The position numbers and the translations under genes were made by a program. From the NCBI GenBank assembly GCA_009701305.1, contig WLKK01000007.1, forward strand, positions 1 to 32,394: DNA of 32,394 nt, given 5' to 3'. Origin of the DNA: Actinomycetota bacterium. GTDB taxonomy: Bacteria > Actinomycetota > Actinomycetes > Nanopelagicales > Nanopelagicaceae. Each line of letters starts with the position of its first letter. The first letter of the stretch is position 1. Below are positions 1,093 through 27,651 of the stretch, piece by piece. The notes beneath the pieces are model-generated. The model saw nothing but the letters and a program-made list of their open reading frames with translations, was not told where the DNA came from and did no database searches.

Positions 1093-2157
1093 TTAACTAG
1101 GCGCCTTCTTGCAAACCACTGTATTCCAACTTCCCACTACGTTTAAGCTGTCAGTCAAGTGCAAATTGTCCATAACTTGAACTATGTCACCTATACCAAA
1201 ACCAGGTTTGACACTAAGGCCAGAAATCCAAATGCTGCCTTTAAATTTTTTAGGAATTGATCTTTGAATTAGCAATTGCAACGAAACTTTTGATGAGTCC
1301 GCGTTTGAATGGACTTGCAAAATCTCGCCTTCAAGGAAAACTGGATCGGATGTAACCAGCAAATTCGAATTCTGAAAATCATTACAAATATCTTTAAAGT
1401 TGCAGAATCGGCAATTTTCGAGTGATACTTTTGCGGGGGCACTTTGCTTGATCAAGAATCCTTCCGCACTCGAGATTGCATCCTTTATTTTTCTCATCGT
1501 CATTTGATCTATTGGAATTTCTTTTTCCTTCAAAGTAAAATCTCTAATTAACAACCTTGTCACTTCGAGATTGCTTAGTTCGTTCACCAACATTAAGTAA
1601 ATATGCATTTGCATAGAGAATGTCTCAGGATCTGTCACATTTCCTGTCTTGTAATCAACAATTTCTAGCCCAAAAGACGTTTCTTTCACAAGATCAGGTA
1701 TTCCCTTCAACTTGAGTTCTTCGCTTTCAAGGAATTTCTCCACCCATGGGAAAGGTTGCTGGGAAGAACCTATCCGTTCGGATGGTTCATCCATTATTTT
1801 CCACACTTCGCCTGAATTCAGTGCCCTTTCGACTAAATATTGAGTTGAAGATTTAACCGCAAAATATTTGGGCCACCGAATCGGCCGAGGCACGACCGTG
1901 TTGGGCCATTCGGATTGAACTCTTTCAAACTCCTCTTGTTCAACTGTATTCCAAATCTTGTTGAACAGAAATTCTCTATTCTCTTCTTTCAATTTTTTGA
2001 ATCCACCCTTATGTGCGGAAGCCAATACTTTGTGAGCAATTTTCCCAAGAGAAGATGGCAAATTCCCCTGATGTCGTTTCTTATCTGGATCAGCACTCCA
2101 TATGAATCGTTGAGGGCAACTTTGAAATACTTCCAGTTCGGACGGGGAGAATTTCAT
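1093..2157 (-). CDS. Cas4/RecB-like PD-(D/E)XK nuclease with probable Fe-S cluster
   Basis: A 354-residue protein. The nuclease core shows His42 (GKIAHKVL), Asp155 (GIPDLV), Asp168 and Lys170 (VDYKTG) and a Q-x-x-x-Y motif (Gln183-Tyr187), the arrangement of the RecB/AddB/Cas4 branch. Cys14 (SCPQRF) near the N-terminus and Cys249, Cys252 and Cys258 after the core (CRFCNFKDIC) make the four-cysteine pattern that holds a 4Fe-4S cluster in AddB and Cas4. About 90 residues follow and look beta-rich, perhaps an OB-like DNA-binding unit. It starts 15 bp after the stop of the helicase gene, so it is the last gene of a three-gene operon; no clear Shine-Dalgarno site is visible, so it may be translated by coupling. 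Inferred role: DNA cutting or processing for the helicase-based defence system, as a DruF/DruG-like partner. No Cas1/Cas2 or CRISPR is in the window. Confidence 0.8.
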   Translation of the reverse strand: MKFSPSELEVFQSCPQRFIWSADPDKKRHQGNLPSSLGKIAHKVLASAHKGGFKKLKEENREFLFNKIWNTVEQEEFERVQSEWPNTVVPRPIRWPKYFAVKSSTQYLVERALNSGEVWKIMDEPSERIGSSQQPFPWVEKFLESEELKLKGIPDLVKETSFGLEIVDYKTGNVTDPETFSMQMHIYLMLVNELSNLEVTRLLIRDFTLKEKEIPIDQMTMRKIKDAISSAEGFLIKQSAPAKVSLENCRFCNFKDICNDFQNSNLLVTSDPVFLEGEILQVHSNADSSKVSLQLLIQRSIPKKFKGSIWISGLSVKPGFGIGDIVQVMDNLHLTDSLNVVGSWNTVVCKKAPS

Positions 2158-2172
2158 AGATTTCGACAGTGA

Positions 2173-5100
2173 CTAGATATTCAACAAATTCGAAATGACG
2201 GAATAAGGGTTTCGGACTAACTGAAAAAAATCGCTCAAATCCGGATTCGGAATCCCAAACTTAAATTTGACTTCCGCTAAGAATCCCTGACTAATCTGTC
2301 CCCCAACACTGTCTCGCTGTGGCCAAAGTGGGTGGCCTATTAGAACTGCCTTTTGGTTGGTGCGGTTTATAAGTACTGGATATTGATTCTTGATAATCTC
2401 CATTTCAATTGGGAGACCCATTCCTGATTGCACTAGTGCCTCAGCACCGACAATGGACTTTTGAATCCAAGTTGAATGATCAAGTTGGCGGCCTAGTACT
2501 AGTGAGGTCATGTCCAGTGCAAGTCTCCAGTCTAATAACTGGTGACTGGATCTGTTTGTATAAGTTCTAAGGCAATCTGGGCAAGACGTGTCACAGCCAG
2601 AATGATTACTTGCTAGCCATCTGTCTCTCATTTCAGAGTCAATGACCGATAAAACCTTCTTGAAGTTTTTTGGTTTCGCAATCTCGATTGAGAATCCTGC
2701 ACCGTTTGCATGTGAATCAGCTAGGTATATTTGACCAGTTCGAGTCTCTGGATTGCTACCCAGTTTCTTTTTGAACCCAACCACAAATTCTTCTGCATCA
2801 ATTCCTAAAGTAATTTTACATGCATTTCGAAAAGCTTCAGCAAATGAAAGATACGCAGCCGTAGCACCAGGTACGAATGGATGATTCGTGGATCCAAGGT
2901 AGATTTCACCGTCTAAATGCGCAAATTCAACATCAGTAGTTTTTATGTCTATAAGTAGAGCATCTGTAGTTCTAATTTCACCGATAGCAATTTCTCTTTC
3001 AACGGAATCAGCAGGAATCTCTTGTCGTAAGAATGGAGGAAGGGTTTCAGGAACAACGACGGTTCCATCTTTGGCTTTAACACATTTGAAGTATTTTCCA
3101 CGATTGTCATTTATAGTCACTAGCCTTGCTTGTTCATATGTAGTGAGAGTTGCAGTGCCGAAGTTGTCTGTATTTGATGGGGATACGTCAGCCCCTAGAA
3201 CTAATCTTGGAGAAGATGCAGGGCTCGAGATATCACTCTCATCGTCGTAGTCTCTCGCCTTAAAAGTTGTTCGAAAACCAAGAGGTTCATACATTTCAAA
3301 TTCCGTCATAGGGTCAAGGCAAATTGGGCAAGGATGCTCATTTTGTGAGTTCAAGTAAACTGCTTCGCAAGACTCACAATGCTTCACCATAATTGGCTGT
3401 CCAAGTGGATCAATAGACACTGAGTTTGTAGCTGATAATCGATACGCTGCGAAACCGGCTACTGTATGAATTTGGTGGTCACGCGTAATTTCAGCGCCTG
3501 GAGCAAACATGCCAACAGCAGCATCAAGAGATCTGTCTGCCACTGAGCTCCGGTCTGAATCCAGTGAATTTTTTGGTTTTTGACCATAAAGAGATCTAAC
3601 TCGCGTAGGGAAGCCAAACATAGGTAATACTCCAAATTGAGCAAGAGCCTCGCTAAGTTCCATATCGGGACGATCTGCATCCAAGATGACAGAATCTATA
3701 TCTGCAATTAATTTAGAGGGTAAATTTGCACACCAGACATCGACGCTATTTTCAAATTCTGTCTGAATCAAAAGTGCCGAAACTACTTCCGACCAATTTT
3801 CGTCAAGGAGTAATCGACATATCGGAACCTTATATTTACTTGTCCAATCAGAAACAATTCCAAAACTTCCATGCAAACTTTCGGAAGTATGTTTTGGTTG
3901 TTTCAATTTAGAAAGTTGAAGAAATGAACGTCTCAACATCTCTCCACAAACGACTCTTCGTACGACACTCTCTCTTCCCATCTGCAAGAAAGGTTCTGGG
4001 GGTGTATCAGATGTCATTCGTTCTGGATGATTAAAATAGTACTCGTCGTGACTTCTATCCCTACATAAAGTGAGAGCGTAAGAAAGTGGTTGACCTAAAC
4101 GCCCTGCCCGGCCAACGCGTTGTTGATAGTTAAATCTTTGTGGTGGGACGTTCGCCATCATCGTGGCACGAAGTGATCCAATATCTACTCCGACTTCCAT
4201 TGTTGTGGTCACGCTTAGAACATCGATACCATGCGTTAACTCTGATTCCCTTGGCGAAGGCTTAAAAGCATCACCTCGGAACTGACGCTGGCGACTTCTT
4301 TGCAAAGCAAGCGGTTTGGTTTGTCCTGTCAACTCTTCAATTCTAAGACGTAGAGGTTTCTGCTTTGATAACCAGGCGAAATAATCATCTTCAAGAACAG
4401 ACTTTGCCTCAACCTCTTCAAGTAAAAACTGATGACAACTCCCTCTAACACAAATTCCGGCGGAATGATGGAGATGCAAGAAAGAGCATCGCTTGCATCT
4501 CCAGACAAATTCACTTGCCGCAATGGCATTTAACGGCAAATCATCCTTGCTTAAAATGGAAATATTCCAATCGCGTAAAACGCCAACTCCGTGCAAGGTA
4601 TCTGAAACCCAGACTTCCAGTTCACTTGCATCGATAGTTATTTCACCATTTAAATCAGAAACGGCCTTCAAATACTTCTTTAATGAGCCTGGAATTTTGG
4701 CGGAAACTCTTTCGGAACGAGATCCCTCGTAGCGACCGGCTAGACCTAGAATTCTTATTGAGGAATCGAGAATCTCCTGGAGTGCGCGCTTGTCAATTCC
4801 ATGAATCGACTCAAATTCGTGGCAGAAAGACAGAAAACCAACACCAACTGATTCCATGTCCCGTTCTGCTCTTCCATAGATGACTTCGCTTGCAATCTCA
4901 AGCTTAAGTGCGCGATCAAATGTACTTCTCATAATTCGACATTGTTCTTCGGAAACTTGTACCCATTCATCGTTTATAGGCTCATACGCCCGGTACCATG
5001 CAGTACCACCAATATTCTGAAATGAAGCTTTTGGACCCGCCGGAGAAACGCCTAGACCAACCAACTCTTTGGTAATGGAATTCACTAATCCCAACCAAGA

Positions 5101-7512
5101 TTTTCCTTCGAAACTATCTTTACTTTTAAGCTTTATAAGCTCCGCATCATCCTCTGCGTCCGTAGCGCCCTTAGATTTCTGGAACTCAAGTTTTGCTATC
5201 CTTCTTTGAGCTTCTAGGACAGTATCACCAGGTCCAGATTCAATTTCGATTGTCGCCACTTGTCGCAGAAGGTCTCGATGGTGATTCAAAGCTACGCCAG
5301 CAGCGGTACGTGCCGCATCATCTCTGGAATCAGTAAAAATGATGGTCTTGTAACTCAAAGGCTTCTTATCTACAGCCAATGAAAGTGATCTTGAGAGTTG
5401 GGATGCGAATACTTGAGTCGCTATTGCTTGACCAGTTGTGTGGGCTCGGATCGGAGTTCTTACAGCTGAGTCGTTCCAAAACTCATCCATCACATTGCTT
5501 TTCCCGCTACTTCCGCAAGCGGGACAAGTTTTTGGCAATGATGGAAACGTTTCTTTTGATGACATTGACACGTTTGCGACCAGTGTTATACCCGAAGTTG
5601 GGACTGGATTTGCAGGAAGTTGCATGAGTCCTAGTTGTGGATTAAATCCCACTTTCTCAAATCTAAATTCTATATTCTGCTTAGAACCACCCACCTCTTT
5701 AGTATGTGTCCAAGGGGCTACAGTCGAATCCATGTTTGGCCAATACCACCTGTATTGATTTGAATTTCTTCGAAAAACCGGTTCTTTGTTTCCTGAATCC
5801 GGAACGTTTCGGGATAGAGACCCAAGGAATGCATTGAATTGGTTTGGGTTTGGATCCGCGTGAACTACAAATCCACCGAGACTGATATCGCCGCAATCAA
5901 AACAATAAAGCAATTCGAGGACTCGACATCCACAAGAATCACAACTCACCGCAGGCAGATCGAATAATTTCCCGATTCGTCTTTCATCAAAGACGTATTC
6001 CGGATCTATACCCGAGCATGATCTATTGGAACAAGCCCATAACCCTCGGGGGGTTCGCATAAAAAGATGTGAGCGAATCGGGATCAAATTGGTACCAACC
6101 CCGCTAGAAAGTTTTTGAAGTGCTTTATCGAGTTTAAGATTAGAATCTATACCCTCACCAAACATGTACTTAGATACTTGCGATAACGACGTTGCAACTA
6201 CCTTTCCAGATTCATCAGAACAAGCTTGTGCAATAATTTGGGAAATCTCTTCTGAACTTAAATTCTCAACATCAATAGTTGAATCTTCTTTCATTTTGAG
6301 TGGCTCTAAATTTCTTGTCATTCCTCTTGTTATTAGAAATGAATCAGGTTTGGCCCCAAAAAATGATGCTGAAAAATCCTTTCCCCCATCGAGATCTGAC
6401 ATTGAAGCGCTTGTTGCGATAAATCGAATTTGTGGTGATTGCGGTGATATACCAATTCTTTGTAACAAGTTACGAATCACTAGCGCGACTTCTGATCCTT
6501 GAGTCCCTCTGTAGAGGTGCAATTCATCTATTACTAAGTGGAAAATGTTATTTGGATCGGCATTTATCCAATCTTTTGTCTGTTTAAATACGGTCTCTTC
6601 CTGCTCCCGCATGAGCATCGCGTTAAGCATCGAATAGTTCGTGACAAGAATATCTGGAGCAGAATGCATCATGTCCCAACGAGTGAGCATCTCTGATCCC
6701 ATCGGATCCGATAGTTGATCTATTGCATCATCACTTGAGTTTGCACTCCTAAACTCCTGGACTTCTCGCGACATATCTTTAAGTTCATTTGCAACTCTTA
6801 CGATTTTTTCTGCCCCACTCCTGAATGGCATCTCTCCACTTCCCATAGTGATACTTGTGTATCTTCCAAACCAAAACTGAAGTGAGTTAGTTTTTTCAGT
6901 AATTATTCGAATTGCTCTTCTAAGGCGAGTGATCTGATCTTCAACGAGGGCGTTCGTTGGATAAATAATCAATGTTCGAATTGCAGCGGGTCTCGTTTCA
7001 GACTCTCGAAGTGGTGACCATTTGGGATTGGAGTCACCCCACCAACGTTTAGCGGCAGGCTGTTCGCGCCAAGTTTTAGCTTCTAAAGCCAGGCGTAAGA
7101 GGATGGGAAGAAGAAAGGACTCGGTTTTTCCTGAACCTGTACCAGAAGTGACGACAATATTCTTTTCTTTTGAATTTGAAGAAAAAAGTACCCTCAAGGC
7201 CTGAGCTTGATGATCCCTGATATAGATTTCTCCGTCGCTCGCTGCAAATTTTCCAAATAGAGCACGTCCAACTAAATCTACTGTATCCCTTTCTAGGCCT
7301 AGCTCGTCTCCCAACTTGCGTAAGGAATGATTTGCGTCATACGGCATCACTGGCTCCAGAAAAATTTCTGTTGCAATCCGGCTATTTGCTAGAAGTAGCT
7401 TTCTCCTTTCTTGCATAAGTTTCGGAAACTTTAACCAGTACTGAGTATCAAAATACTTGAGATAGGCATCTATCAACTGGTCTTTCAAAATTGTTGGAGT
7501 GAGATTATTCAA
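2173..7512 (-). CDS. Large DExH-box helicase with DUF1998-type C-terminus (DruE-like defence helicase)
   Basis: 1779 residues. Walker A SGTGSGKT is at residues 123-130, after a Q-motif-like RDHQAQA near 99-105. The Walker B box is DELH (VIDELHLYRG, about 327-336). The second RecA lobe has TTTMEVGVDIGSLRA and QQRVGRAGRLG (about 1128-1140). Zinc clusters of CxxC type lie near 494-540, 664, 1007-1026 and 1378-1400. The end carries the DUF1998/MZB pattern C-DTS-CPDCLRTY...H..LDW (about 1640-1665). It starts with TTG at 7510-7512, eight bases after AGGAAG, and overlaps the end of the upstream gene by 8 bp. One polypeptide holds both helicase and DUF1998 parts, as in Druantia DruE, whereas DISARM splits them into DrmA and DrmB. 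Inferred role: the ATP-driven motor of an anti-phage complex. The DruE assignment is by architecture only. Confidence 0.85.
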   Translation of the reverse strand: MNNLTPTILKDQLIDAYLKYFDTQYWLKFPKLMQERRKLLLANSRIATEIFLEPVMPYDANHSLRKLGDELGLERDTVDLVGRALFGKFAASDGEIYIRDHQAQALRVLFSSNSKEKNIVVTSGTGSGKTESFLLPILLRLALEAKTWREQPAAKRWWGDSNPKWSPLRESETRPAAIRTLIIYPTNALVEDQITRLRRAIRIITEKTNSLQFWFGRYTSITMGSGEMPFRSGAEKIVRVANELKDMSREVQEFRSANSSDDAIDQLSDPMGSEMLTRWDMMHSAPDILVTNYSMLNAMLMREQEETVFKQTKDWINADPNNIFHLVIDELHLYRGTQGSEVALVIRNLLQRIGISPQSPQIRFIATSASMSDLDGGKDFSASFFGAKPDSFLITRGMTRNLEPLKMKEDSTIDVENLSSEEISQIIAQACSDESGKVVATSLSQVSKYMFGEGIDSNLKLDKALQKLSSGVGTNLIPIRSHLFMRTPRGLWACSNRSCSGIDPEYVFDERRIGKLFDLPAVSCDSCGCRVLELLYCFDCGDISLGGFVVHADPNPNQFNAFLGSLSRNVPDSGNKEPVFRRNSNQYRWYWPNMDSTVAPWTHTKEVGGSKQNIEFRFEKVGFNPQLGLMQLPANPVPTSGITLVANVSMSSKETFPSLPKTCPACGSSGKSNVMDEFWNDSAVRTPIRAHTTGQAIATQVFASQLSRSLSLAVDKKPLSYKTIIFTDSRDDAARTAAGVALNHHRDLLRQVATIEIESGPGDTVLEAQRRIAKLEFQKSKGATDAEDDAELIKLKSKDSFEGKSWLGLVNSITKELVGLGVSPAGPKASFQNIGGTAWYRAYEPINDEWVQVSEEQCRIMRSTFDRALKLEIASEVIYGRAERDMESVGVGFLSFCHEFESIHGIDKRALQEILDSSIRILGLAGRYEGSRSERVSAKIPGSLKKYLKAVSDLNGEITIDASELEVWVSDTLHGVGVLRDWNISILSKDDLPLNAIAASEFVWRCKRCSFLHLHHSAGICVRGSCHQFLLEEVEAKSVLEDDYFAWLSKQKPLRLRIEELTGQTKPLALQRSRQRQFRGDAFKPSPRESELTHGIDVLSVTTTMEVGVDIGSLRATMMANVPPQRFNYQQRVGRAGRLGQPLSYALTLCRDRSHDEYYFNHPERMTSDTPPEPFLQMGRESVVRRVVCGEMLRRSFLQLSKLKQPKHTSESLHGSFGIVSDWTSKYKVPICRLLLDENWSEVVSALLIQTEFENSVDVWCANLPSKLIADIDSVILDADRPDMELSEALAQFGVLPMFGFPTRVRSLYGQKPKNSLDSDRSSVADRSLDAAVGMFAPGAEITRDHQIHTVAGFAAYRLSATNSVSIDPLGQPIMVKHCESCEAVYLNSQNEHPCPICLDPMTEFEMYEPLGFRTTFKARDYDDESDISSPASSPRLVLGADVSPSNTDNFGTATLTTYEQARLVTINDNRGKYFKCVKAKDGTVVVPETLPPFLRQEIPADSVEREIAIGEIRTTDALLIDIKTTDVEFAHLDGEIYLGSTNHPFVPGATAAYLSFAEAFRNACKITLGIDAEEFVVGFKKKLGSNPETRTGQIYLADSHANGAGFSIEIAKPKNFKKVLSVIDSEMRDRWLASNHSGCDTSCPDCLRTYTNRSSHQLLDWRLALDMTSLVLGRQLDHSTWIQKSIVGAEALVQSGMGLPIEMEIIKNQYPVLINRTNQKAVLIGHPLWPQRDSVGGQISQGFLAEVKFKFGIPNPDLSDFFQLVRNPYSVISNLLNI

Positions 7513-10500
7513 TTCTTGCTCTTCCTAATTTTGCTGCGAGAAGTCTTGCGGTCTGCGAGTTAATATTATTGTAGATAAGCAATTTTCCAGTTGAATCTCG
7601 CTCTGGCAGTTTGCCTGATGCTAAAACAGCAGATCGGCCATACAGTCCTGGCAGAGTTGCACCTAGCGGGACAATCAATTTTTTATTTGCATAATCGAAA
7701 GCAAGTAGCGCTATACCTAATTCTGCTGCCTGGAAATGTTTAGCCAATTCTGCTGAAACAAAACTCACGGAATTATTTCTCAAGTCTTGCGCAGTTCTAG
7801 TTACATATCGATTACGATATTCTCCTTGGATTCTGTACCCGCCAACCTCGTCGATGTTTGAGGTTTCAACCCAAGAATTTGATGCTGGTTCAAACTGCGA
7901 TATGGATTCAAACCCAGGAACTGCTCTTTTAGGAAGAGATTCTACCAACTCAGCAATTGGAGGAAGAATGCTTAGCATTTCCAAGACAGGTTCTCGCAGA
8001 TAAGGAATATTCATTTTATTCGAAATTACTGCGATATCAGATTGTTTCGCCCCGATGATTCGTGGAAGTGTGAAGCTTTCGATCTCTTCAAAACTAATTA
8101 TCTTACCTTCGGTGAGAGAATTTCGTATTGATTCCAGTAGAGACTTGGAACAAAAACCTGTAATGACTATGTGATCACCGCAAGATGCAAAACTAGTGGG
8201 AGCAACTTCCCAACTTCTAATTTGAAAAAATTCATCTAATCGACAGTCAATGAGAGCAAGTTGATCGAGTTCAAGCGCGAATTGATATTTAAACAGCGCG
8301 CCAGGGTCTATGGCGCTCGCAAGCATTTCCAATGCCAAGCCCGACCCTCCACCGACATGCATTAACCCATCCAACACTTCCACGTGCCTTGTTCTTCTAT
8401 TTTCGACAGGTGGCATGTTCGAAAGCGAGACCCTTGGTGTCTGCACAACAACTGCTTCTGCTGAAGTTGCAACCTTCTTTGCTACATTTTCTTTTTTTAA
8501 CTTATTTCTTTCAGCAACCCAAGGATTTGCTGCAAATTTTTTGTGTAGGCCACAATATTTACAAGTGCCTTGAATGTTTCCTGAGTCACTCTTCTCAAAT
8601 CCTTGGCGAGATCTTGATGGAACCGTAGGAGGTATTACAAAATTATGGCGAGCGGTTCCGAAGCAACTTGCAGCTGTCACGCTTTGTAAAGCAATTTGCT
8701 CAAATTTGCGGTTTGTCATATTCCCACTTGGTTGGTTAACCCACCAAATTTTTTCATTGGGCGGGATTTCTTCTGCATAAATTTTTACATTTGAGGCTTT
8801 CTTAGTGATAGATCCATCCACAAAACTAGAAATTGATTCTTGCAGAGGAACTGTTTGCACTACACCTAATACAGTATCTGTAAAGTCATGCACTAATCTT
8901 TCAGAGGATTTCCAACTTGCCTCATCTATGGAATCTGAAGATCGCAATCTAAGTGTCTTTTCTGTTACGGGCTTGTTCTCAGAATCCATGAAAAGTTTAA
9001 CTGCGTAATTGTTATTGATGAGGGTCGATGCATCAATTTTCCATACTCCCGTAGCTTCATAAAATTCACGTGCTAGAACGACGGTTTCAGAATCATCCTC
9101 TATGCAGATTTGCATGGAGATTTTTTCTGCGCCTAAGACTGATCCACGGATTTCGAAGTCAATATCTGAATGCCATTTTGGTGGTCTTCCTGGCAATTGA
9201 AAACCCCCGGAGAAATTCAAAGTTCCACCGAAAATCGGCTTCAGGCCTTCCAGAGAGCCATCAGGAGAGAGTGACGAATTCTCGGGTGGCATGACAAGTT
9301 CCACGTTTATCGCCATTACCCATCCATCTGGAATTCCTGCAATGTCTTTAGCGCCTAGTACTGCCCATCCAGGCCGTGCGCACTTGCTCAATACTTCTGA
9401 AACTTTGGAAACAAAATTTCCATTATTTTGGATAGCCAAAAGAGTTCTGATGCCAATTTCCGTTCTTTCAACTTCTTGGTATCTACGAGATAATTCATCA
9501 TGTCTAAAAACAACTAGACGTTTCGGGTAACGTTCAATGTTAAATTCTCGACCAATGTCGACGGTCAGCATTCCCTCAAGTAGATCTCGCGACCCAACTG
9601 GAGGAAATGAAGTGTCTGGTCGCCACCAGCCTGATTGGTCCATGAGGACTTGAATTTTCGCGTCGGCCTCACCATCACGTCTCTTTATGCCAATTACGTG
9701 GCTTTCTTTACTAGAAATCGGCGCGCTAAATGAAAAATTGAAGTGCATCGCAGAACTTGGGAATGAAGTCTCAAAGGCTTCAAGCCGCACCTGAAAATCT
9801 TGCTTAGAAATTTGGTCGTCCTCAAGGTGCCCGCCAGATACAGCCCCATCCCACAATTCAAGTTCCCTACAAGCGATACTAGCGATGCGCGTTTTTGCGT
9901 CGTCTTTCTCCCATAGTTTTTGTAACGGTTTGCTTGGATTTCGATAGGAACTAAAGTATGAATCTTCTCTTTTCATCCATGCATCAATAATATTTTGCAT
10001 ATCGCGTTCTACTAAACTTGTAAATGGAGAAAAATTATTTTCTCTAAATAATTTTGGGAGTTTTTTGCGATCAACAGAGCGTACTAATGCTTGCGAAAGC
10101 GCAAAGCCCACATATTTGAAAGCAGAGATTGAGTAAGCCGTTCCAATTCCACGCTTACTACTTAAAAATTTGTCAAGCCAAAGATTTAGTGCGGACCAAA
10201 AAATAGTTGCAACTTTACGATAACTTTCTTCAACTATTTTTTTGTCAGGAAGTCCTAAATTTCCTTGAAGTCTCGGATAGTAAGCATTCGTCGAATACCC
10301 GCCTTCTCCCCCCATGTCGGAGGCAGATATCGTAAAAGCAAGGAGGAGTGGAATGTGTGGGTAACTTGGAACTGGATTTGATTTCTCCACCGCTTCATTG
10401 CAGTTGCGGTACCAAGTTCCCAATGAGTTTTTCATCTTGTCAAATAAAATTGGCAAATCTGAATGGTGAATTTGTGAATTAACACATTCGAAAATCGTCT

Positions 10501-10732
10501 CTTCTAAAGTCGCGGGATCAATTCCCAACTCATTGGAAACCTGCAACTGAACTTCTTCAGTAATCTCCAAATAAACGGGGCGATTCGCCATTTCTACAGT
10601 AAATAGCGCTCTACAAAGTGCCTCATTAAGCAAATCATAGGTCACTAGTTGTTCTGCAATCCCTGAGTCCGCCGGGATTTCCAAGGTCATGACATCAGGG
10701 TAATGGGTATAACTGACATTCAAAATAGTCAA
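7505..10732 (-). CDS. Large protein of unknown fold, defence-operon partner of the DUF1998 helicase
   Basis: 1075 residues with no family I can name. What is visible: a mixed alpha/beta N-terminal half rich in Trp and Tyr, a beta-rich middle (about 330-620), a CKYCGLHKK cysteine pair near residue 727 that may bind zinc, and a GGGSGLA glycine turn near 800. No Walker box, nuclease or methylase motif is evident, and no membrane segment. Its 3' end overlaps the helicase start by 8 bp, so the pair is translationally coupled and always co-expressed; a core role in the same complex is a reasonable inference (compare the DruF/DruG proteins of Druantia II, whose sequences I cannot align here). Start choice is uncertain: TTG at 10732 is the longest, TTG at 10723 has GGGA eight bases upstream, and the first ATG is codon 15. 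Confidence 0.8.
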   Translation of the reverse strand: MTILNVSYTHYPDVMTLEIPADSGIAEQLVTYDLLNEALCRALFTVEMANRPVYLEITEEVQLQVSNELGIDPATLEETIFECVNSQIHHSDLPILFDKMKNSLGTWYRNCNEAVEKSNPVPSYPHIPLLLAFTISASDMGGEGGYSTNAYYPRLQGNLGLPDKKIVEESYRKVATIFWSALNLWLDKFLSSKRGIGTAYSISAFKYVGFALSQALVRSVDRKKLPKLFRENNFSPFTSLVERDMQNIIDAWMKREDSYFSSYRNPSKPLQKLWEKDDAKTRIASIACRELELWDGAVSGGHLEDDQISKQDFQVRLEAFETSFPSSAMHFNFSFSAPISSKESHVIGIKRRDGEADAKIQVLMDQSGWWRPDTSFPPVGSRDLLEGMLTVDIGREFNIERYPKRLVVFRHDELSRRYQEVERTEIGIRTLLAIQNNGNFVSKVSEVLSKCARPGWAVLGAKDIAGIPDGWVMAINVELVMPPENSSLSPDGSLEGLKPIFGGTLNFSGGFQLPGRPPKWHSDIDFEIRGSVLGAEKISMQICIEDDSETVVLAREFYEATGVWKIDASTLINNNYAVKLFMDSENKPVTEKTLRLRSSDSIDEASWKSSERLVHDFTDTVLGVVQTVPLQESISSFVDGSITKKASNVKIYAEEIPPNEKIWWVNQPSGNMTNRKFEQIALQSVTAASCFGTARHNFVIPPTVPSRSRQGFEKSDSGNIQGTCKYCGLHKKFAANPWVAERNKLKKENVAKKVATSAEAVVVQTPRVSLSNMPPVENRRTRHVEVLDGLMHVGGGSGLALEMLASAIDPGALFKYQFALELDQLALIDCRLDEFFQIRSWEVAPTSFASCGDHIVITGFCSKSLLESIRNSLTEGKIISFEEIESFTLPRIIGAKQSDIAVISNKMNIPYLREPVLEMLSILPPIAELVESLPKRAVPGFESISQFEPASNSWVETSNIDEVGGYRIQGEYRNRYVTRTAQDLRNNSVSFVSAELAKHFQAAELGIALLAFDYANKKLIVPLGATLPGLYGRSAVLASGKLPERDSTGKLLIYNNINSQTARLLAAKLGRARIE

Positions 10733-10770
10733 TCCCTAACTTTGTCAGTGGGATCAGATAAGCTCCTGCT
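10733..10770. promoter_or_regulatory. 38-bp divergent intergenic region between the defence operon and the methyltransferase gene
   Basis: Only 38 bp separate the start of the 1075-aa gene (minus) and the methyltransferase ATG (plus). Promoter elements for both directions must overlap each other or reach into coding sequence. On the minus strand CTGACA and TATTTT with a 15-bp gap form a weak candidate; on the plus strand TTGTCA is followed by GATAAG. Neither is convincing. The compact divergence suggests the methyltransferase can affect expression of the operon. Confidence 0.35.
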
Positions 10771-12159
10771 ATGAGCTTTAGATTTGTTGACCTTTTTGCT
10801 GGAATTGGTGGATTTCATGGCGCACTCGGCGCCCTGGGGGGGGAATGTGTTTACGCCTCTGAAATTGATAAAGCAGCAGCAAGAATCTATTTGAGAAATT
10901 GGGGAATTGAACCTGAAGGGGACATAACCCTCGCGGCCAACGACACCACGATGAATGTGCCAGATCATGACGTTTTGGTTGGCGGGTTTCCATGCCAACC
11001 TTTTAGTAAGTCAGGAAAGCAAAAGGGCATGGAAGAGGCTCGAGGAACTTTGTTTTGGAATATTGCGAAAATTATTGAAATTAGAAAACCAAAAATAGTC
11101 ATACTTGAAAATGTTAGAAATATAGCGGGTCCAAGGCATGCTCACGAATGGGAAGTCATTATTCAGACCTTGCGTGAATTAGGTTACCGAGTTAGTTCAA
11201 AGCCTTTTGTGGTTTCCCCACATCGAATTCATCCTTCATTCGGCGGACGACCACAAGTTCGTGAGCGGGTTTTTATAGCAGCAACAAGATTAAACAGGAC
11301 CACAGGGAAACTTCACGAAGAACCACAGCTTCCCTCAAGGGAACAATTTGAAGCAAATTGGGATTCAAAGAAGTGGAAACTTGCTAAAGACTTACCCTTA
11401 GATCCAATGACTGCAAAAGAAAAGGCTAGCCTGAAACTTTCAGAAGCAGAAATTGAATGGCTTGATGCATGGAATGAATTTTTACAAATATATCGCGGAA
11501 ATAATGCTGGCAAAAACCCACCAGGCTTCCCGATTTGGGTCGATGATTGGATTCACACAAAGAATCTGAAAATTCCCCGTGGGACTCCTAAATGGAAAGA
11601 AAATTTCTTGCGTAAAAATTCGGAACTATATTCTGCAAATAAAAAAGTTCTAGATGCTTGGCTCAAGAAATATAACAACCTTTCTCACTTTCCTCCGAGT
11701 AGGAGAAAATTTGAATGGCAAGCTCAGGATGCTAAGACTATTGCAGACACTATTTTACATTTCCGCCCTTCAGGGATTAGAGCGAAGAAAGCTACGTACG
11801 TTCCGGCCCTAGTGGCAATCACTCAAACATCGATTATTGGAAAGCACAAGAGGAGAATTTCAGTCAGAGAGGCAGCAAGGTTGCAGGGCTTCCCCGATTG
11901 GTTTGATTTCTTGGACCAAAGAGAAGCAATGTCGTACAAACAACTTGGAAATGCCGTAAACATTGGAGCTGTCTATAACGTAATTAAGTCTTTAGTTATT
12001 AGAGATATTGATCTGCTTTCAAAGTATCCAGAATTAACAAAAGCAATTCTAGGCGCCCCAAACTCACCTGATAACCAGTTGATGGAGTTCAAATCTCATT
12101 CGTATAAAGAAAGAACTAATTCCACCACAATTTTCCAACCTAGACTTGTCGATCTATAG
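10771..12159 (+). CDS. DNA cytosine-5 methyltransferase (Dcm family; DruM-like or type II R-M methylase)
   Basis: 462 residues with all main C5-methyltransferase motifs in canonical order: I FVDLFAGIGGF (5-15, AdoMet binding), IV GGFPCQPFSKSG with catalytic Cys75, VI ENVRN (113-117), VIII QVRERVF (162-168), IX SVREAARLQGFPDWF (from about 364) and X YKQLGNAVN (about 389-397). The stretch of about 190 residues between VIII and IX is the target recognition domain; the target base sequence cannot be read from it. The enzyme appears intact. It lies back to back with the helicase operon and faces a probable restriction endonuclease (7 bp between stops). It could be the self-marking methylase of a Druantia II-like system, the partner of that endonuclease, or both. 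Confidence 0.93.
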   Translation: MSFRFVDLFAGIGGFHGALGALGGECVYASEIDKAAARIYLRNWGIEPEGDITLAANDTTMNVPDHDVLVGGFPCQPFSKSGKQKGMEEARGTLFWNIAKIIEIRKPKIVILENVRNIAGPRHAHEWEVIIQTLRELGYRVSSKPFVVSPHRIHPSFGGRPQVRERVFIAATRLNRTTGKLHEEPQLPSREQFEANWDSKKWKLAKDLPLDPMTAKEKASLKLSEAEIEWLDAWNEFLQIYRGNNAGKNPPGFPIWVDDWIHTKNLKIPRGTPKWKENFLRKNSELYSANKKVLDAWLKKYNNLSHFPPSRRKFEWQAQDAKTIADTILHFRPSGIRAKKATYVPALVAITQTSIIGKHKRRISVREAARLQGFPDWFDFLDQREAMSYKQLGNAVNIGAVYNVIKSLVIRDIDLLSKYPELTKAILGAPNSPDNQLMEFKSHSYKERTNSTTIFQPRLVDL

Positions 12160-12943: not shown

Positions 12944-13263
12944 AAAGTAAGTATGAGCAAATTAGGGCGTTTTTGCAGCTGAGGCAGACCCTTTAAATAT
13001 AGTAAAAGTTAATTTAAGGCTAGTTACACGTAGGAAATCTGAATTCCTTTATCTATTAGTCCAAAATTAGATCCTTCTAAACTATGGATTTTCTAGTCTT
13101 TGACCAAAGGATTTATGGACAGAAATCGAAAATTGGCCTCAAATCATGAAAAATCGTCTATCTTGTCTGCATGTAATACCCGCGGCCCGACGAGCTTCTA
13201 AAAATAGAAATTTTAGATATGCCCCCACCCGCACGATCACTTCGTGCTGTTTGGGGGATTTTT
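12944..13263. other. AT-rich intergenic stretch, no gene seen
   Basis: About 320 bp between the divergent endonuclease and DUF2075 genes. I find no RNA gene, hairpin terminator or clear operator. TATATT near 12997 on the minus strand could be the -10 box of the endonuclease gene, but there is no matching -35. An in-frame GTG/ATG extension of the DUF2075 gene reaches back to 13219 and lacks a ribosome binding site. Confidence 0.4.
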
Positions 13264-16964: not shown

Positions 16965-17120
16965 GAAAACCTTCCCTAAGTGCGAAGTCAGAATACTCGC
17001 TAGTGCGGTGTATAAGACCTTACTTCAGATAACTTTTAATCACAGCTTTTAGTTTTGCACATTTCGTTAGCAGCTAAAAATATCAAACTGAGTATCGAGT
17101 TAGTTTTCCCCTGCCCGTTT

Positions 17121-17200
17121 CCTTCTCGAAACAAGTTGAGCACGCTCGCCAGCGTTCACTCACTTGTTTTCCCTGCTAATTGCAGGGGAAATCGAGAAGG
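17121..17200 (+). promoter_or_regulatory. Long-range hairpin in the leader that would bury the Shine-Dalgarno site of the 31-codon gene (copy A)
   Basis: CCTTCTCGA (17121-17129) is complementary to TCGAGAAGG (17192-17200). With G-U pairs the stem can extend over the GGGAG of the ribosome site at 17199-17203. Inside it lie a second stem (AAACAAGT with ACTTGTTT) and a local hairpin (CCCTGC with GCAGGG). An upstream CCCCTGC at about 17108-17114 can compete for the same GCAGGGG, giving two mutually exclusive folds. Confidence 0.6.
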
Positions 17201-17209
17201 GAGGATGTT

Positions 17210-17305
17210 ATGGATTATGGAAACTGGATCGCCCTATTGGCGATTTTCGCTAATTTAATAATTTCGATTATTAAAACGCGAAAGGCTCACCCAGAAGATG
17301 AGTGA
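17210..17305 (+). CDS. 31-residue hydrophobic peptide, candidate type I toxin (copy A)
   Basis: ATG 17210 to TGA 17303-17305. The peptide begins MDYGNW, has one hydrophobic segment (residues 6-21, WIALLAIFANLIISII), then a basic patch KTRK (22-25) and an acidic end HPEDE. GGGAGGA ends four bases before the ATG, giving a GGAGG-to-ATG gap of 5, the best ribosome site in the window. An in-frame duplicate at 25265 differs at one residue (T23 here, R23 there). Single-span peptides of about 30 residues with charged tails are the usual toxin class of type I toxin-antitoxin loci (Fst, TisB, BsrG), which kill or arrest by damaging the inner membrane. That function is inferred. Other options are a small membrane regulator, or chance coding inside a structured RNA. 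Confidence 0.6.
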   Translation: MDYGNWIALLAIFANLIISIIKTRKAHPEDE

Positions 17306-17373
17306 GCCCAGATTCACAAAATCCCTCTAACGGAGGGTAGGTGGTTTCGGGAAGAAATTCCCGGACCATCTGA
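17275..17373 (-). ncRNA. Candidate antisense RNA to the 31-codon gene (copy A)
   Basis: On the minus strand TTACAT (17407-17402) and TATACG (17385-17380), 16 bp apart, form a modest promoter that recurs in copy B. RNA starting near 17373 would contain two hairpins (CCCGG...TTCCCG pairing near 17347-17372 and CCCTC...GAGGG near 17323-17337) and end at the hairpin GGCTCAC (17308-17302) / GTGAGCC (17290-17284) followed by a T-rich tail. It would overlap the last codons and stop of the small gene. Purely predicted. Confidence 0.4.
17284..17308 (-). terminator. Hairpin terminator on the minus strand, overlapping the 3' end of the 31-codon gene (copy A)
   Basis: A 7-bp GC-rich stem with an 11-nt loop; on the minus strand it is followed by TTTCGCGTTTTAAT, while the plus-strand side has no T-run. 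It therefore reads as a minus-strand terminator placed inside a coding region on the other strand. The same arrangement is in copies B and C. Confidence 0.5.
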
Positions 17374-17478
17374 GGAAAGCGTATAGCAAGTTGATTTTGA
17401 AATGTAAGAAAATCTCACAAAATTGCAAACTACTTTGGGTAACTTTTTTCTTAGAGGCTGTTGTCTCTGATTGTTAAA

Positions 17479-17533
17479 ATCGAACCCACTACACTTCCCT
17501 TAGGTCAAAAGGGTGCTCTATCCAATGAGTTAC
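17479..17533 (-). pseudogene. tRNA remnant (copy A), missing the acceptor 3' side
   Basis: On the minus strand the D-arm (CTCATTGGATAGAG) and the anticodon stem-loop CCCTT-TTGACCT-AAGGG are identical to the fuller copy at 24980-25054. The T-arm is broken and the acceptor 3' strand is lost, so it cannot make a tRNA. Confidence 0.55.
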
Positions 17534-17592
17534 AAAGTTGAAGGCCCTGATAGAAATGGCGGGGTCTTTAACACTTAATCATCGGGTCGGGG

Positions 17593-17615
17593 GTTCGAGT
17601 CCCTCACAACCCACT
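17593..17615 (+). repeat. 23-bp direct repeat of a tRNA 3' end, left copy (attL/attR-like)
   Basis: GTTCGAGTCCC...ACCCACT, the T-loop and acceptor 3' strand of a tRNA, matches 18545-18567 base for base over 23 bp. Here the T-stem is intact (GGGGG with CCCTC) but no 5' half of a tRNA precedes it. With the right copy it brackets the DUF5360/SMR gene pair. Confidence 0.75.
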
Positions 17616-24970: not shown

Positions 24971-24979
24971 TAGTGTGCG

Positions 24980-25054
24980 TACCACTGGCGGGAATCGAAC
25001 CCGTTACACTTCCCTTAGGTCAAAAGGGTGCTCTATCCAATGAGCTACAGAAAT
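24980..25054 (-). tRNA. tRNA-like gene, divergent; anticodon loop reads GAC (Val) if functional
   Basis: 75 nt on the minus strand. The D-arm GCTC-ATTGGATA-GAGC, the anticodon stem CCCTT/AAGGG with 7-base loop TTGACCT and the T-loop TTCGATT with a 4-bp stem are all present. Faults: the acceptor stem has one mismatch and two G-U pairs, the outer T-stem pair is A-C, the variable loop is 7 nt, and position 37 is C, where a purine is the rule. CCA is not encoded (CGC follows the discriminator A). It has its own flanking terminators. It may be a diverged functional tRNA or an early pseudogene. Two more decayed copies exist at 17479-17533 and 25535-25592. Confidence 0.45.
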
Positions 25055-25084: not shown

Positions 25085-25175
25085 AACATTTAATTAACAG
25101 TTGTTAATTTTACACAGTTCGTTAGTAGCAAAAAATATCAAACTGAGCATCGAGTTAGTTTTCCCCTGCCCGTTT

Positions 25176-25255
25176 CCTTCTCGAAACAAGTTGAGCTCGC
25201 TCGCCAGCGTTCACTCACTTGTTTTCCCTGCTAATTGCAGGGGATATCGAGAAGG
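25176..25255 (+). promoter_or_regulatory. Leader hairpin burying the Shine-Dalgarno site of the 31-codon gene (copy B)
   Basis: CCTTCTCGA (25176-25184) pairs with TCGAGAAGG (25247-25255); G-U pairs can extend it to 25173 and 25258, covering GGGAG of the ribosome site at 25254-25260. Inner stem AAACAAGT (25184-25191) / ACTTGTTT (25217-25224) and local hairpin CCCTGC (25226-25231) / GCAGGG (25237-25242) are nested inside. CCCCTGC at 25163-25169 is an alternative partner for 25237-25243. Confidence 0.6.
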
Positions 25256-25264
25256 GAGGATGTT

Positions 25265-25360
25265 ATGGATTATGGAAACTGGATCGCCCTATTGGCGATT
25301 TTCGCTAATTTAATAATTTCGATTATTAAAAGGCGAAAGGCTCACCCAGAAGATGAGTGA
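25265..25360 (+). CDS. 31-residue hydrophobic peptide, candidate type I toxin (copy B)
   Basis: ATG 25265 to TGA 25358-25360, with GGGAGGA at 25254-25260 directly upstream. The peptide matches copy A except Arg23 for Thr23, so the basic patch is KRRK (22-25) after the hydrophobic segment (6-21). The only nucleotide difference from copy A in the 96-base gene is AGG versus ACG. A UUCG-capped hairpin TTTAATAAT/ATTATTAAA is built into codons 16-22. The inner membrane is the likely site. Function is inferred from size, hydropathy, buried ribosome site and antisense arrangement, not from homology. This copy may be the better preserved one, since the flanking tRNA and terminator are also intact here. 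Confidence 0.62.
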   Translation: MDYGNWIALLAIFANLIISIIKRRKAHPEDE

Positions 25361-25429
25361 GCCACTAGCACCATAAATCCCTCTAACGGAGGGTAGGTGG
25401 TTTCGGGAAGAAATTCCCGGACCATCTGG
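25329..25429 (-). ncRNA. Candidate antisense RNA to the 31-codon gene (copy B)
   Basis: Minus-strand TTACAT (25463-25458) and TATATG (25441-25436), 16 bp apart, would start RNA near 25429. It folds into a long hairpin (TGGT..CGGGAA with TTCCCG..ACCA, 25398-25426), a CCCTC/GAGGG hairpin (about 25378-25392) and the terminator hairpin at 25339-25363. About 30 nt would be complementary to the end of the small gene. Boundaries are estimates. Confidence 0.4.
25339..25363 (-). terminator. Minus-strand hairpin terminator overlapping the 3' end of the 31-codon gene (copy B)
   Basis: GGCTCAC (25339-25345) pairs with GTGAGCC (25357-25363). On the minus strand the hairpin is followed by TTTCGCCTTTTAAT. 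The plus strand lacks a T-run here. The stop codon of the small gene lies in the stem. Confidence 0.5.
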
Positions 25430-25534
25430 CGAAAGCATATAGCTAATTGACTTTGAAATGTAAGAAAATTTCCCGAAATTGCAAACTACTTTGGGTTACT
25501 TTTTTTCTTACAGTTGGTTGTCTCTTATTGTTAA

Positions 25535-25592
25535 GATCGAACCGCTACACTTATATTACGTCAGAGGGTCGCTCTATCCAGTAAGTTACAAA
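25535..25592 (-). pseudogene. tRNA remnant (copy B)
   Basis: On the minus strand a recognisable D-arm (TTACTGGATAGAGC) and TTCGATCTT T-loop remain, but the anticodon stem has lost pairing; the loop region reads CTCTGACGTAA, again containing GAC. More decayed than the copy at 17479-17533 in the anticodon arm. Confidence 0.5.
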
Positions 25593-25595
25593 GTT

Positions 25596-25625: not shown

Positions 25626-25633
25626 TTCTTTGT

Positions 25634-25720
25634 GGAAACTGGATCGCCCTTTTGGCGATTTTCGCTAATTTGATAATTTCGATTGTTAAAAGGCGAAAGG
25701 CTCACCCAGAAGATGAGTGA
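25634..25720 (+). pseudogene. 5'-truncated relic of the 31-codon gene (copy C)
   Basis: From codon 4 (GNW) to the TGA at 25718-25720 the frame is intact and encodes the same peptide with I21V. Two other changes from copy B (CTA to CTT, TTA to TTG) are synonymous. The leader, ribosome site and ATG are gone; a terminator sits directly upstream and no in-frame start follows it closely. The downstream hairpins and possible antisense promoter (TATACG) remain, up to about 25862, where homology stops at the end of the next gene. Confidence 0.65.
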
Positions 25721-25854
25721 GCCCAGATTCACAAAATCCCTCTAACGAAGGGTAGGTGGTTTCGGGAAGAAATTCCCGGACCATCTGGCGAAAGCGTATA
25801 GCTAATTGAGTTTGAAATGTTAGAAAATCTAGCGAAATTGCAAACTACTTTGGG

Positions 25855-27651
25855 TTACTTACTCCGAAAACCGGCAGGGCATTTAGGGTTGGTTCCAGTT
25901 ACTTTCCTTACTGTTTTACCCTTTATGCAAGTGATTGAAAGCTTTTTAGCAATAACTTGTGGGGATGGTGTTGCTGCAGCCGATGGTGTGGCTGACGGAG
26001 TTGGTGTTGGTGCGGGTGTCGCTATCACCTTATCTTGTTTTAATGAAACTTTTAAAGTCGGTGATGAAAATTGGAAATTGTTAGCAGTCAAATACAACCA
26101 ACCATTTTTTTCATTTACAACAGTTGTTGCAATCTGAGGTGTGCCGTCGTTGCTTACTATCGAAATTGAAGCTTTGATCGGAGCATTTGAAAATCCGTAA
26201 ATGCAACGTGCTACTTCGGAGCGCATGACAAGGTCATAGGTGCCCTTGAAAACATCTGCTCCATTTGGAAGATAGTGAGGAGCGGCAACTTGATAATTTA
26301 GATCTCCTGCATCTTTATCGTATACAGGTGGACCCGGTGAATATGCAGTTGCATTAGTTGTAACAATTCCGTTTAATGCCGTTAGATCAGTAAAACATTT
26401 ATTCGCACCTTGTAGCTCACGCTGAGTTAGTGAACGAAATGACCAGAACTGAGGTACAACCGTCGCAGTGTTGTCGACATAAGGTAGCCAGAGATTTAGT
26501 TCATCCATTGCTGATGAAGAATAAGGACTTGGAGCTGTAGTCCAGGCACGCACGCTGTAATCTGTTGATCGAGAAATTGTGTTCGACCAGCCTTCACCAC
26601 CATTTATAACTAATCCAGTACTTCGATCGAAATATTTTCCCGAACTTGGATCATAATTATTCTGCAATTTAGTTGGCATATCGGCCCACATAAAGTGCTT
26701 ATAAACCGTTGGAACACCTATTGGATTGGCTGTAACTGTTAAGAGGGTATTTGTTCCAGATTTTTCAATGGAGATTTCTGGATTAGTCATTCGCCCATGC
26801 ATCCAGCCTGCCGGTGTAATTGAAAGACGCACTTTCAAAGCAAATCTGAAATCTTTTGGGTAGGCCTGCTTTTGCGCGCAGAGGCTTTCACCTACTGAGC
26901 CATCAGCGCAACCAATTCCAGAACTTCCGCTTTCATTCCAGATATAACCTGAGCCTTCATTATTCAATTTATTCCAGCCGGTATTACATAATTTATTTTC
27001 GCTCAAACACCATGGAAATGAATACTGTTTAGGCTGCAATTGCACAGGAACAATTCTGGAATGAACTGAAGTTAATTTTGCGGAGCCGCCTTTAGAAATA
27101 TTTCCAGACATTATGAAAGATACAAAGTAGGTACTTCCAGCTGCTCCTTCGGCTCCAGGGATGTTAAATAAACTTGCACCTCCCCCAGATGGGAGATTGG
27201 CACTAGGACTGCCTTCAAATTTATTTTGCGCAGTATCTGGGAAATACCGCATGAAAGAACCGGGGTACACCTTCCCACTTGTATCAATTGCACTTACTGC
27301 CTCAATGCAATTTGTTTCAATGGCCGAATTACAAACTGGAATCTGGGCATAGTAAATAAAATTCTGAGCCGCTGAGCACTTTGGATCATAGAGTGAGGAA
27401 CATGTGGGATCTTCTTGGGCCTTGGGTCCAATTTTTGCTTGATCTAAAAGAGCAGAATAATCACGGTCTTCTGATGATCTCTCACCGAAATAACCATTTT
27501 GGCTACCAAGCCCTGTTGTGTTATCTGGAACTACCCAACCTTGATTGACATCAATAATATTTTCAGCACTCTGCGAGGGTGATGCAAAAACTGCTCCCAC
27601 CATAAATAGGGAGCAAAAGAGCGCAATAGTAGAACGAAAACTAAATCGCAT
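25855..27651 (-). CDS. Large secreted protein of unknown function with Pro/Thr linker and C-terminal CIKGK...CPAGF tag
   Basis: 598 residues. A signal peptide (RFSFRSTIALFCSLFMVGAV..., cleavage near VFA-S or QSA-E) starts it. The body has several Cys pairs (CSSLYDPKC, CNSAIETNC, CLSENKLC, CADGSVGESLC), suggesting disulfides in an exported protein, and ends in the strand NEKNGWLYLTANNFQFSSPTL also found in the 410-residue protein. A PTPTPSATPS-type linker (about 548-570) separates it from the final SITCIKGK...TGTNPKCPAGF tag. No enzyme motif is recognised. The TAA stop at 25855-25857 lies in the last bases of copy C, so the repeat abuts, and may have reshaped, the 3' end of this gene. It is divergent from the giant repeat gene. 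Confidence 0.75.
   Translation of the reverse strand: MRFSFRSTIALFCSLFMVGAVFASPSQSAENIIDVNQGWVVPDNTTGLGSQNGYFGERSSEDRDYSALLDQAKIGPKAQEDPTCSSLYDPKCSAAQNFIYYAQIPVCNSAIETNCIEAVSAIDTSGKVYPGSFMRYFPDTAQNKFEGSPSANLPSGGGASLFNIPGAEGAAGSTYFVSFIMSGNISKGGSAKLTSVHSRIVPVQLQPKQYSFPWCLSENKLCNTGWNKLNNEGSGYIWNESGSSGIGCADGSVGESLCAQKQAYPKDFRFALKVRLSITPAGWMHGRMTNPEISIEKSGTNTLLTVTANPIGVPTVYKHFMWADMPTKLQNNYDPSSGKYFDRSTGLVINGGEGWSNTISRSTDYSVRAWTTAPSPYSSSAMDELNLWLPYVDNTATVVPQFWSFRSLTQRELQGANKCFTDLTALNGIVTTNATAYSPGPPVYDKDAGDLNYQVAAPHYLPNGADVFKGTYDLVMRSEVARCIYGFSNAPIKASISIVSNDGTPQIATTVVNEKNGWLYLTANNFQFSSPTLKVSLKQDKVIATPAPTPTPSATPSAAATPSPQVIAKKLSITCIKGKTVRKVTGTNPKCPAGFRSK

Follow-up and report, generated by a model that had tools for sequence, protein, structure and literature searches.

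Fst/RNAII, TxpA/RatA and BsrG/SR4, Gram-positive type I toxin–antitoxin systems that are among the closest known to the locus described here, share with it a one-span peptide (approximately 30–60 residues) with a charged tail, a structured mRNA and, often, presence in several copies. Our module differs from them in that its peptide has no sequence-family match and that an antisense RNA is at most a candidate. To our knowledge, a DnaA-box promoter and a three-way-junction leader complementary to 16S rRNA are not features of the Fst, TxpA or BsrG systems. A second comparison is with hok/mok-Sok and tisB/istR-1, whose mRNAs are produced in a translation-locked form, as that of the module would also be. 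An upstream open reading frame (ORF) overlapping the peptide start in some module classes resembles mok coupling, and the promoter follows a stress-type logic like that of tisB, which is LexA-controlled. The differences are that the putative lock is a local three-way junction, that a sok-like antisense RNA is at most a candidate and that the module has a DnaA-like box where tisB has a LexA box. SidA-like division inhibitors are also similar: these are inner-membrane peptides of about 29 residues under replication or damage control. This likeness is one of description only, and the module differs in having a structured leader.

A 2025 paper (PMC12390103) names Proteobacteria, Firmicutes and Tenericutes as the only sources of type I systems, apart from the cyanobacterial case that it adds itself, the experimentally tested MsoT1/MsoA1 locus of Microcystis. 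Like MsoT1/MsoA1, the module is a candidate type I locus beyond the classical phyla, here known from sequence alone. In an open-access literature library, we found no type I locus from Actinobacteria, no toxin promoter with a DnaA box and no 16S-complementary toxin leader; if it is of type I, this structured, lineage-wide candidate would extend the phylum range of such systems. The host bacteria, which have tiny genomes, are probably among the most abundant bacteria in fresh water.

Copies and distribution of the module

The stretch of DNA analysed (the window) is 32,394 nucleotides of contig WLKK01000007.1 (assembly GCA_009701305.1, family Nanopelagicaceae). It contains three module copies and an associated tRNA gene:

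17036–17446, plus strand: module copy 1, full length, approximately 405 bp; boundaries from blastn and MAFFT, common to copies at unrelated loci
25099–25502, plus strand: module copy 2, full length (box 25108–25116, leader 25165–25264, ORF 25265–25360, 3' module 25374–25502)
25630–25861, plus strand: module copy 3, 5'-truncated, lacking promoter, leader and start
24979–25054, minus strand: tRNA-Val (GAC), scored as intact

The first-pass annotation had described an element at 17053–17408 that carries a 31-codon gene, in two intact copies and a third, truncated one. The element is real, but the module is wider, at about 17036–17446. Both intact genes were recovered, at 17210 and 25265, each starting with ATG and ending with TGA, as was the truncated copy, which begins at 25630. 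The gene at 17210 is MDYGNWIALLAIFANLIISIIKTRKAHPEDE, and the 25265 copy differs by one substitution. The near-ideal ribosome site reported earlier is GGGAGG, 5 nt upstream of both ATGs. No further copy was found when the window's own genome was searched; truncated copies related to copy 3 are present in genomes G002 and G004.

Copies 1 and 2 are 95% identical over a 275 bp core, compared to 72–86% in the tRNA blocks and 82.5% in the right flank, consistent with the earlier suggestion of selection on the core. Degraded tRNA-Val copies at 17478–17539 and 25534–25593 co-travel with the duplicated block. The flanking tRNA pieces are indeed more diverged, but not all three are debris as had been proposed, since 24979–25054 scores as an intact tRNA-Val (GAC). 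In the region 17478–17614, the degraded tRNA-Val piece and a hairpin resembling a terminator precede another tRNA-like 3' end (GGTTCGAGTCCCTCACAACCCAC, plus strand), a layout suggesting that recombination at tRNA sites has recurred.

When 199 related genomes were searched at the DNA level, seven proved to carry the module, among them that of the window; all seven belong to the same family. With covariance models, matches within the order were obtained in 14 of 296 genomes for R1 (3' module), 15 of 296 for R2 (leader) and 27 of 296 for R3 (leader); among genomes drawn evenly from the class (395) and phylum (396), the models matched only those of the same family. Within the genomes sampled, most of which are metagenome-assembled, the module is thus order-restricted and patchy. 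Because full-length relatives (77–92% identity) are found at unrelated loci of other genomes, and because distant relatives keep the architecture at about 16–30% peptide identity, the observation is not a product of chance.

Copies occupy several unrelated loci and in some genomes are tandem, 1.1–1.3 kb apart. Genome G090 provides an empty site: the two convergent genes on either side of the module in G344 abut there, with approximately 430 bp missing exactly between them. Other module loci are conserved by descent. Neither terminal inverted repeats nor a clear target duplication (at best TTA) was found at the module ends. A phage, plasmid or viral-contig origin was rejected, as there was no match to any of these. 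At loci L083, L091 and L110 (G254, G095, G030), one module copy has genes reading as lexA, nrdR and nrdJ within a few kb.

The peptide gene

17199–17204, plus strand: Shine-Dalgarno sequence GGGAGG
17210–17305, plus strand: 31-codon gene for a single-span membrane peptide

The module encodes a peptide under purifying selection. The dN/dS check named in the first-pass annotation gave values of 0.17 for class A, 0.40 for class B, 0.24 for the G007 type, 0.55 for the G254 and P types and 0.97 for class C (three sequences only, with few differences), so that no group reaches 1. Between classes A and C, 78 first, 7 second and 183 third codon positions differ. An intact ORF of 27–39 codons follows each of the 35 leaders examined. 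RNA structure without the peptide, which had been named as evidence against a coding toxin, is indeed seen for the 3' module in G065, G095 and G002, but never for the leader.

The 27–39-residue products have a single span, as first described, with a hydropathy maximum of 1.2–2.4 over 17 residues. Across the main peptide classes, the first 27 residues can be aligned gap-free, and the classes share, within an IANL-like core of the span, a polar residue (N, D or R); the peptide on G095 contig 35 is more divergent. No match in Pfam, NCBIfam, PHROGs, PADLOC or PDB identifies the peptide. The Fst/Ldr, TxpA, BsrG, Hok and Hol-Tox profiles of Pfam, NCBIfam, PHROGs and PADLOC gave nothing at or near cut-off, and the resemblance to Fst, TxpA and BsrG noted earlier therefore does not extend to homology detectable by profile searches. 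Weak matches to Pfam WCOR413 and Vpu and to PHROG 9177 (best E 0.002) and 20219 were read as chance hydrophobicity.

Putative promoter region and structured leader

17036–17044, plus strand: upstream DnaA-box-like 9-mer TTAATCACA, 17 bp before the main box
17053–17061, plus strand: main DnaA-box-like site TTTTGCACA, 48 bp upstream of the -10 hexamer
17101–17106, plus strand: putative -10 hexamer TAGTTT (TANNNT), just before the leader
17110–17209, plus strand: three-way-junction leader (from covariation)
17118–17129, plus strand: 5' strand of the closing stem, pairing with 17192–17202 and covering part of the ribosome site
17139–17157, plus strand: apex segment antisense to 16S rRNA, with one bulged T in copy 1

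A 9-mer ending in CACA (TNCACA box) lies 47–48 bp upstream of the -10 hexamer in 33 of 34 copies, a spacing that is not wholly class-blind, as the -10 anchor was the TANNNT hexamer nearest the leader, picked per class. The intervening sequence is unconserved. A second box 17 bp upstream is also present in G101a and G029. Two genomes of the family have perfect TTATCCACA boxes on the flanks of dnaA, and the pattern TTWTNCACA occurs only four times in the window, both strands counted. The near-constant spacing, the boxes beside dnaA and the scarcity of the pattern make control of the promoter by DnaA likely.

The leader forms a covarying three-way junction that occupies part of the Shine-Dalgarno sequence, a result that bears out the earlier description of a structured leader. 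Two-sided changes are seen at 15 pairs, with 41 such cells compared to 8.6 in shuffled alignments; none of 500 shuffles scored as high. The alignment was fitted to the model, in which 95.7% of its cells are paired, and slid controls, run as a counter-check, reached only 42–49%. Seven of the eight folds predict an unpaired fraction of 0.14–0.30 for the Shine-Dalgarno window; in the closed G030 type it is 0.73, so that this window is predicted to be largely open, a point against a lock in that class. We infer that the leader acts as a translation lock. In most G254- and P-class copies, an upstream ORF of 2–5 codons overlaps the peptide start and could couple its translation to that of the peptide. 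Rfam 15 gave no gathering-score match for the module; its matches on the loci, tRNA and msiK, all lie elsewhere. Two further pairings were considered and dropped: a kissing interaction of leader loop CGCCAG with CTGGCG in the 3'UTR or TTGGCG in the ORF, which is present in some classes and absent in G254, and closure of the 5' and 3' ends (GCCC/GGGT), which is broken in G029 and G101.

In nearly all classes the leader apex is CGCCGCCAGCG, with or without a one-base insertion. Its reverse complement is found in 16S rRNA at nt ~25–43 (helices 3 and 4), the reference being real 16S genes from two genomes of the same family, as the window's own assembly contains none. Complementarity extends over 14–19 nt in most copies, 17–20 ungapped nt in many and 19–20 nt in G370; leaders shuffled with dinucleotide content kept (200 each) gave a mean match of 8.3 and a maximum of 13. 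In the window, the copies have the insertion, and their duplex with 16S rRNA would contain one bulge, at a predicted -35.5 kcal/mol. Some apex changes in G022, G030 and G095 contig 35 preserve pairing through G-U, and G209b and G207 (a left-hand insertion plus a GTCT extension) have gained complementarity on the other side. The G007 leader shows no complementarity beyond 9–10 nt to 16S or 23S rRNA. Since all classes are homologous, the complementarity represents one ancestral event rather than many independent ones, and it has apparently been kept by selection. Neither this loop nor the DnaA-box-like site was part of the first-pass annotation. In mature ribosomes the 16S region in question is paired and buried, and nascent or decaying rRNA alone would therefore seem able to pair with the apex. 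A simple scheme with rRNA as the opener of the lock was rejected as unsupported, because the Shine-Dalgarno sequence is not freed when the apex is held open in constrained in silico folding.

The 3' module and readings of the locus

17284–17308, plus strand: hairpin across the ORF end, GGCTCAC/GTGAGCC
17318–17446, plus strand: 3' module, near-invariant, retained in all truncated copies found
17340–17370, plus strand: 3' hairpin GGTGGTTTCGGGAAGAAATTCCCGGACCATC
17427–17443, plus strand: 3'-terminal near-palindrome AAACTACTTTGGGTAAC

The ORF-end hairpin holds the same position in other peptide classes, with different sequences. The terminal near-palindrome reads GTTACTCNGAGTAGT or GTTACTGAGAGTAAC in distant classes and within the window is confined to the three module copies. 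Covariation in the A-type 3' module is weak (four pairs). Every truncation seen retains the 3' end, and several truncated copies keep the 3' module, often right behind the stop codon of a gene. In G065 (L093 2230–2410) it directly follows a gene, with neither leader nor peptide, and the ORF-end-type hairpin is changed yet paired (GTCTACCTACTGG...CCAGTAGGTAGAC). The G007 class ends with a plain plus-strand intrinsic terminator. A scan for an antisense RNA yielded one sigma70-like site compared to 0.8 expected; promoter and terminator signals are at chance level, and no antitoxin was found. The 3' GTNAC half-sites are spaced at 10 bp and are similar to MtrA sites (PMC6265350); all six genomes tested have MtrA. 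This is a weak lead only, since the motif is also an inverted repeat. The 3' module may terminate transcription, serve as an operator, encode an antisense RNA or form a mobility end. Separately, at G007 locus L084, perfect or near-perfect 15-bp palindromes (GTTACTCCGAGTAAC / GTTACTCCGAGTGAC) occur outside the module at 8399–8413 and 13156–13170.

The reading that we prefer, with a probability of roughly one half, is an independently transcribed, translation-locked, toxin-like (or division-inhibitor-like) membrane-peptide module under DnaA-type control. Transcription would start from a promoter with a -10 hexamer but no conserved -35, with DnaA presumably binding to the DnaA-box-like site that lies some 60 bp before it. 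The nascent leader would fold as the three-way junction, and the mRNA would be made in a poorly translated form because the closing stem occupies part of the Shine-Dalgarno sequence. Opening or trimming of the leader, possibly by pairing of the apex with nascent or decaying 16S rRNA, would then alter stability or translation and allow the 27–39-residue single-span peptide to be made. The 3' module would supply the 3' end of the mRNA and may hold an antisense RNA or operator. The peptide would enter the membrane and slow growth as type I toxins or small division inhibitors do, an effect suggested by its size and hydropathy, its multicopy, patchy distribution and the repeated loss of the leader and start. 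Its toxicity is thus proposed by analogy; many harmless regulators are likewise small single-span peptides. An extension in which 16S rRNA is the trans-acting RNA partner of the toxin-like peptide is tentative and of low probability: apex pairing would let ribosome synthesis or decay set output and the DnaA-responsive promoter would tie it to replication, so that a single locus would sense both ribosome and replication state. Even with the toxin label set aside, the conserved 16S-complementary loop and the DnaA-box-like site at constant spacing provide a way to test whether a membrane peptide is connected to ribosome state and replication.

The type I interpretation of the first-pass annotation holds in part: the peptide, the putative translation lock and the multicopy occurrence fit, while the minus-strand promoter signal is at chance and no catalogued family matches. 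A classical cis-antisense locus, in which the minus strand of the 3' module encodes an antitoxin RNA of about 70 nt pairing with the mRNA 3' end, appears unlikely. Candidate parts can be named on that strand (a TANNNT -10 near 17379–17386, a hairpin and the terminator-like CCCTCCGTTAGAGGG-ATTTTG at 17337–17323), and the 3' module is near-invariant far past the ORF and is kept where leader and start are lost, as orphan antitoxins would be; 3'UTR AUCCCUCUAACG is complementary to the start region. However, the G254 class does not conserve the candidate -10 at the corresponding position, the 3' part of truncated copies is no better conserved than the ORF remnant, and the chance-level scans and the G007 terminator also count against this reading. 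We are equally doubtful that the peptide is no toxin at all and is instead a small cell-cycle-linked membrane regulator (e.g. a SidA-type division inhibitor) made via DnaA upon replication disturbance. The fixed spacing of the DnaA-box-like site, the MtrA-like half-sites and the copy near lexA-, nrdR- and nrdJ-like genes would suit such a regulator, although the MtrA likeness is weak, and sporadic presence, tandem duplicates, truncations and the empty site suit an accessory module better than a housekeeping one.

Far less probable than either is a mobile repeat (MITE-like or retro-element-like) that carries the ORF as incidental cargo, with the palindrome and 5' truncations as traces of mobilisation. 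Such a repeat could account for the several unrelated loci, the empty site, the retention of 3' ends and a terminal palindrome nearly confined to the element; the strong coding and leader covariation signals, the descent of several loci in place and the lack of terminal inverted repeats or a target duplication clearer than TTA argue against it.

Elsewhere in the window, 1093–12159 contains a Druantia-like defence cluster, all strong PADLOC matches: DruE (1779 aa), DruF (1075 aa), the cytosine methylase DruM (462 aa) and a DruK/Cas4-like nuclease. The ORF at 13219–15120 matches PDC-S41, Nhi and AbiO more weakly.
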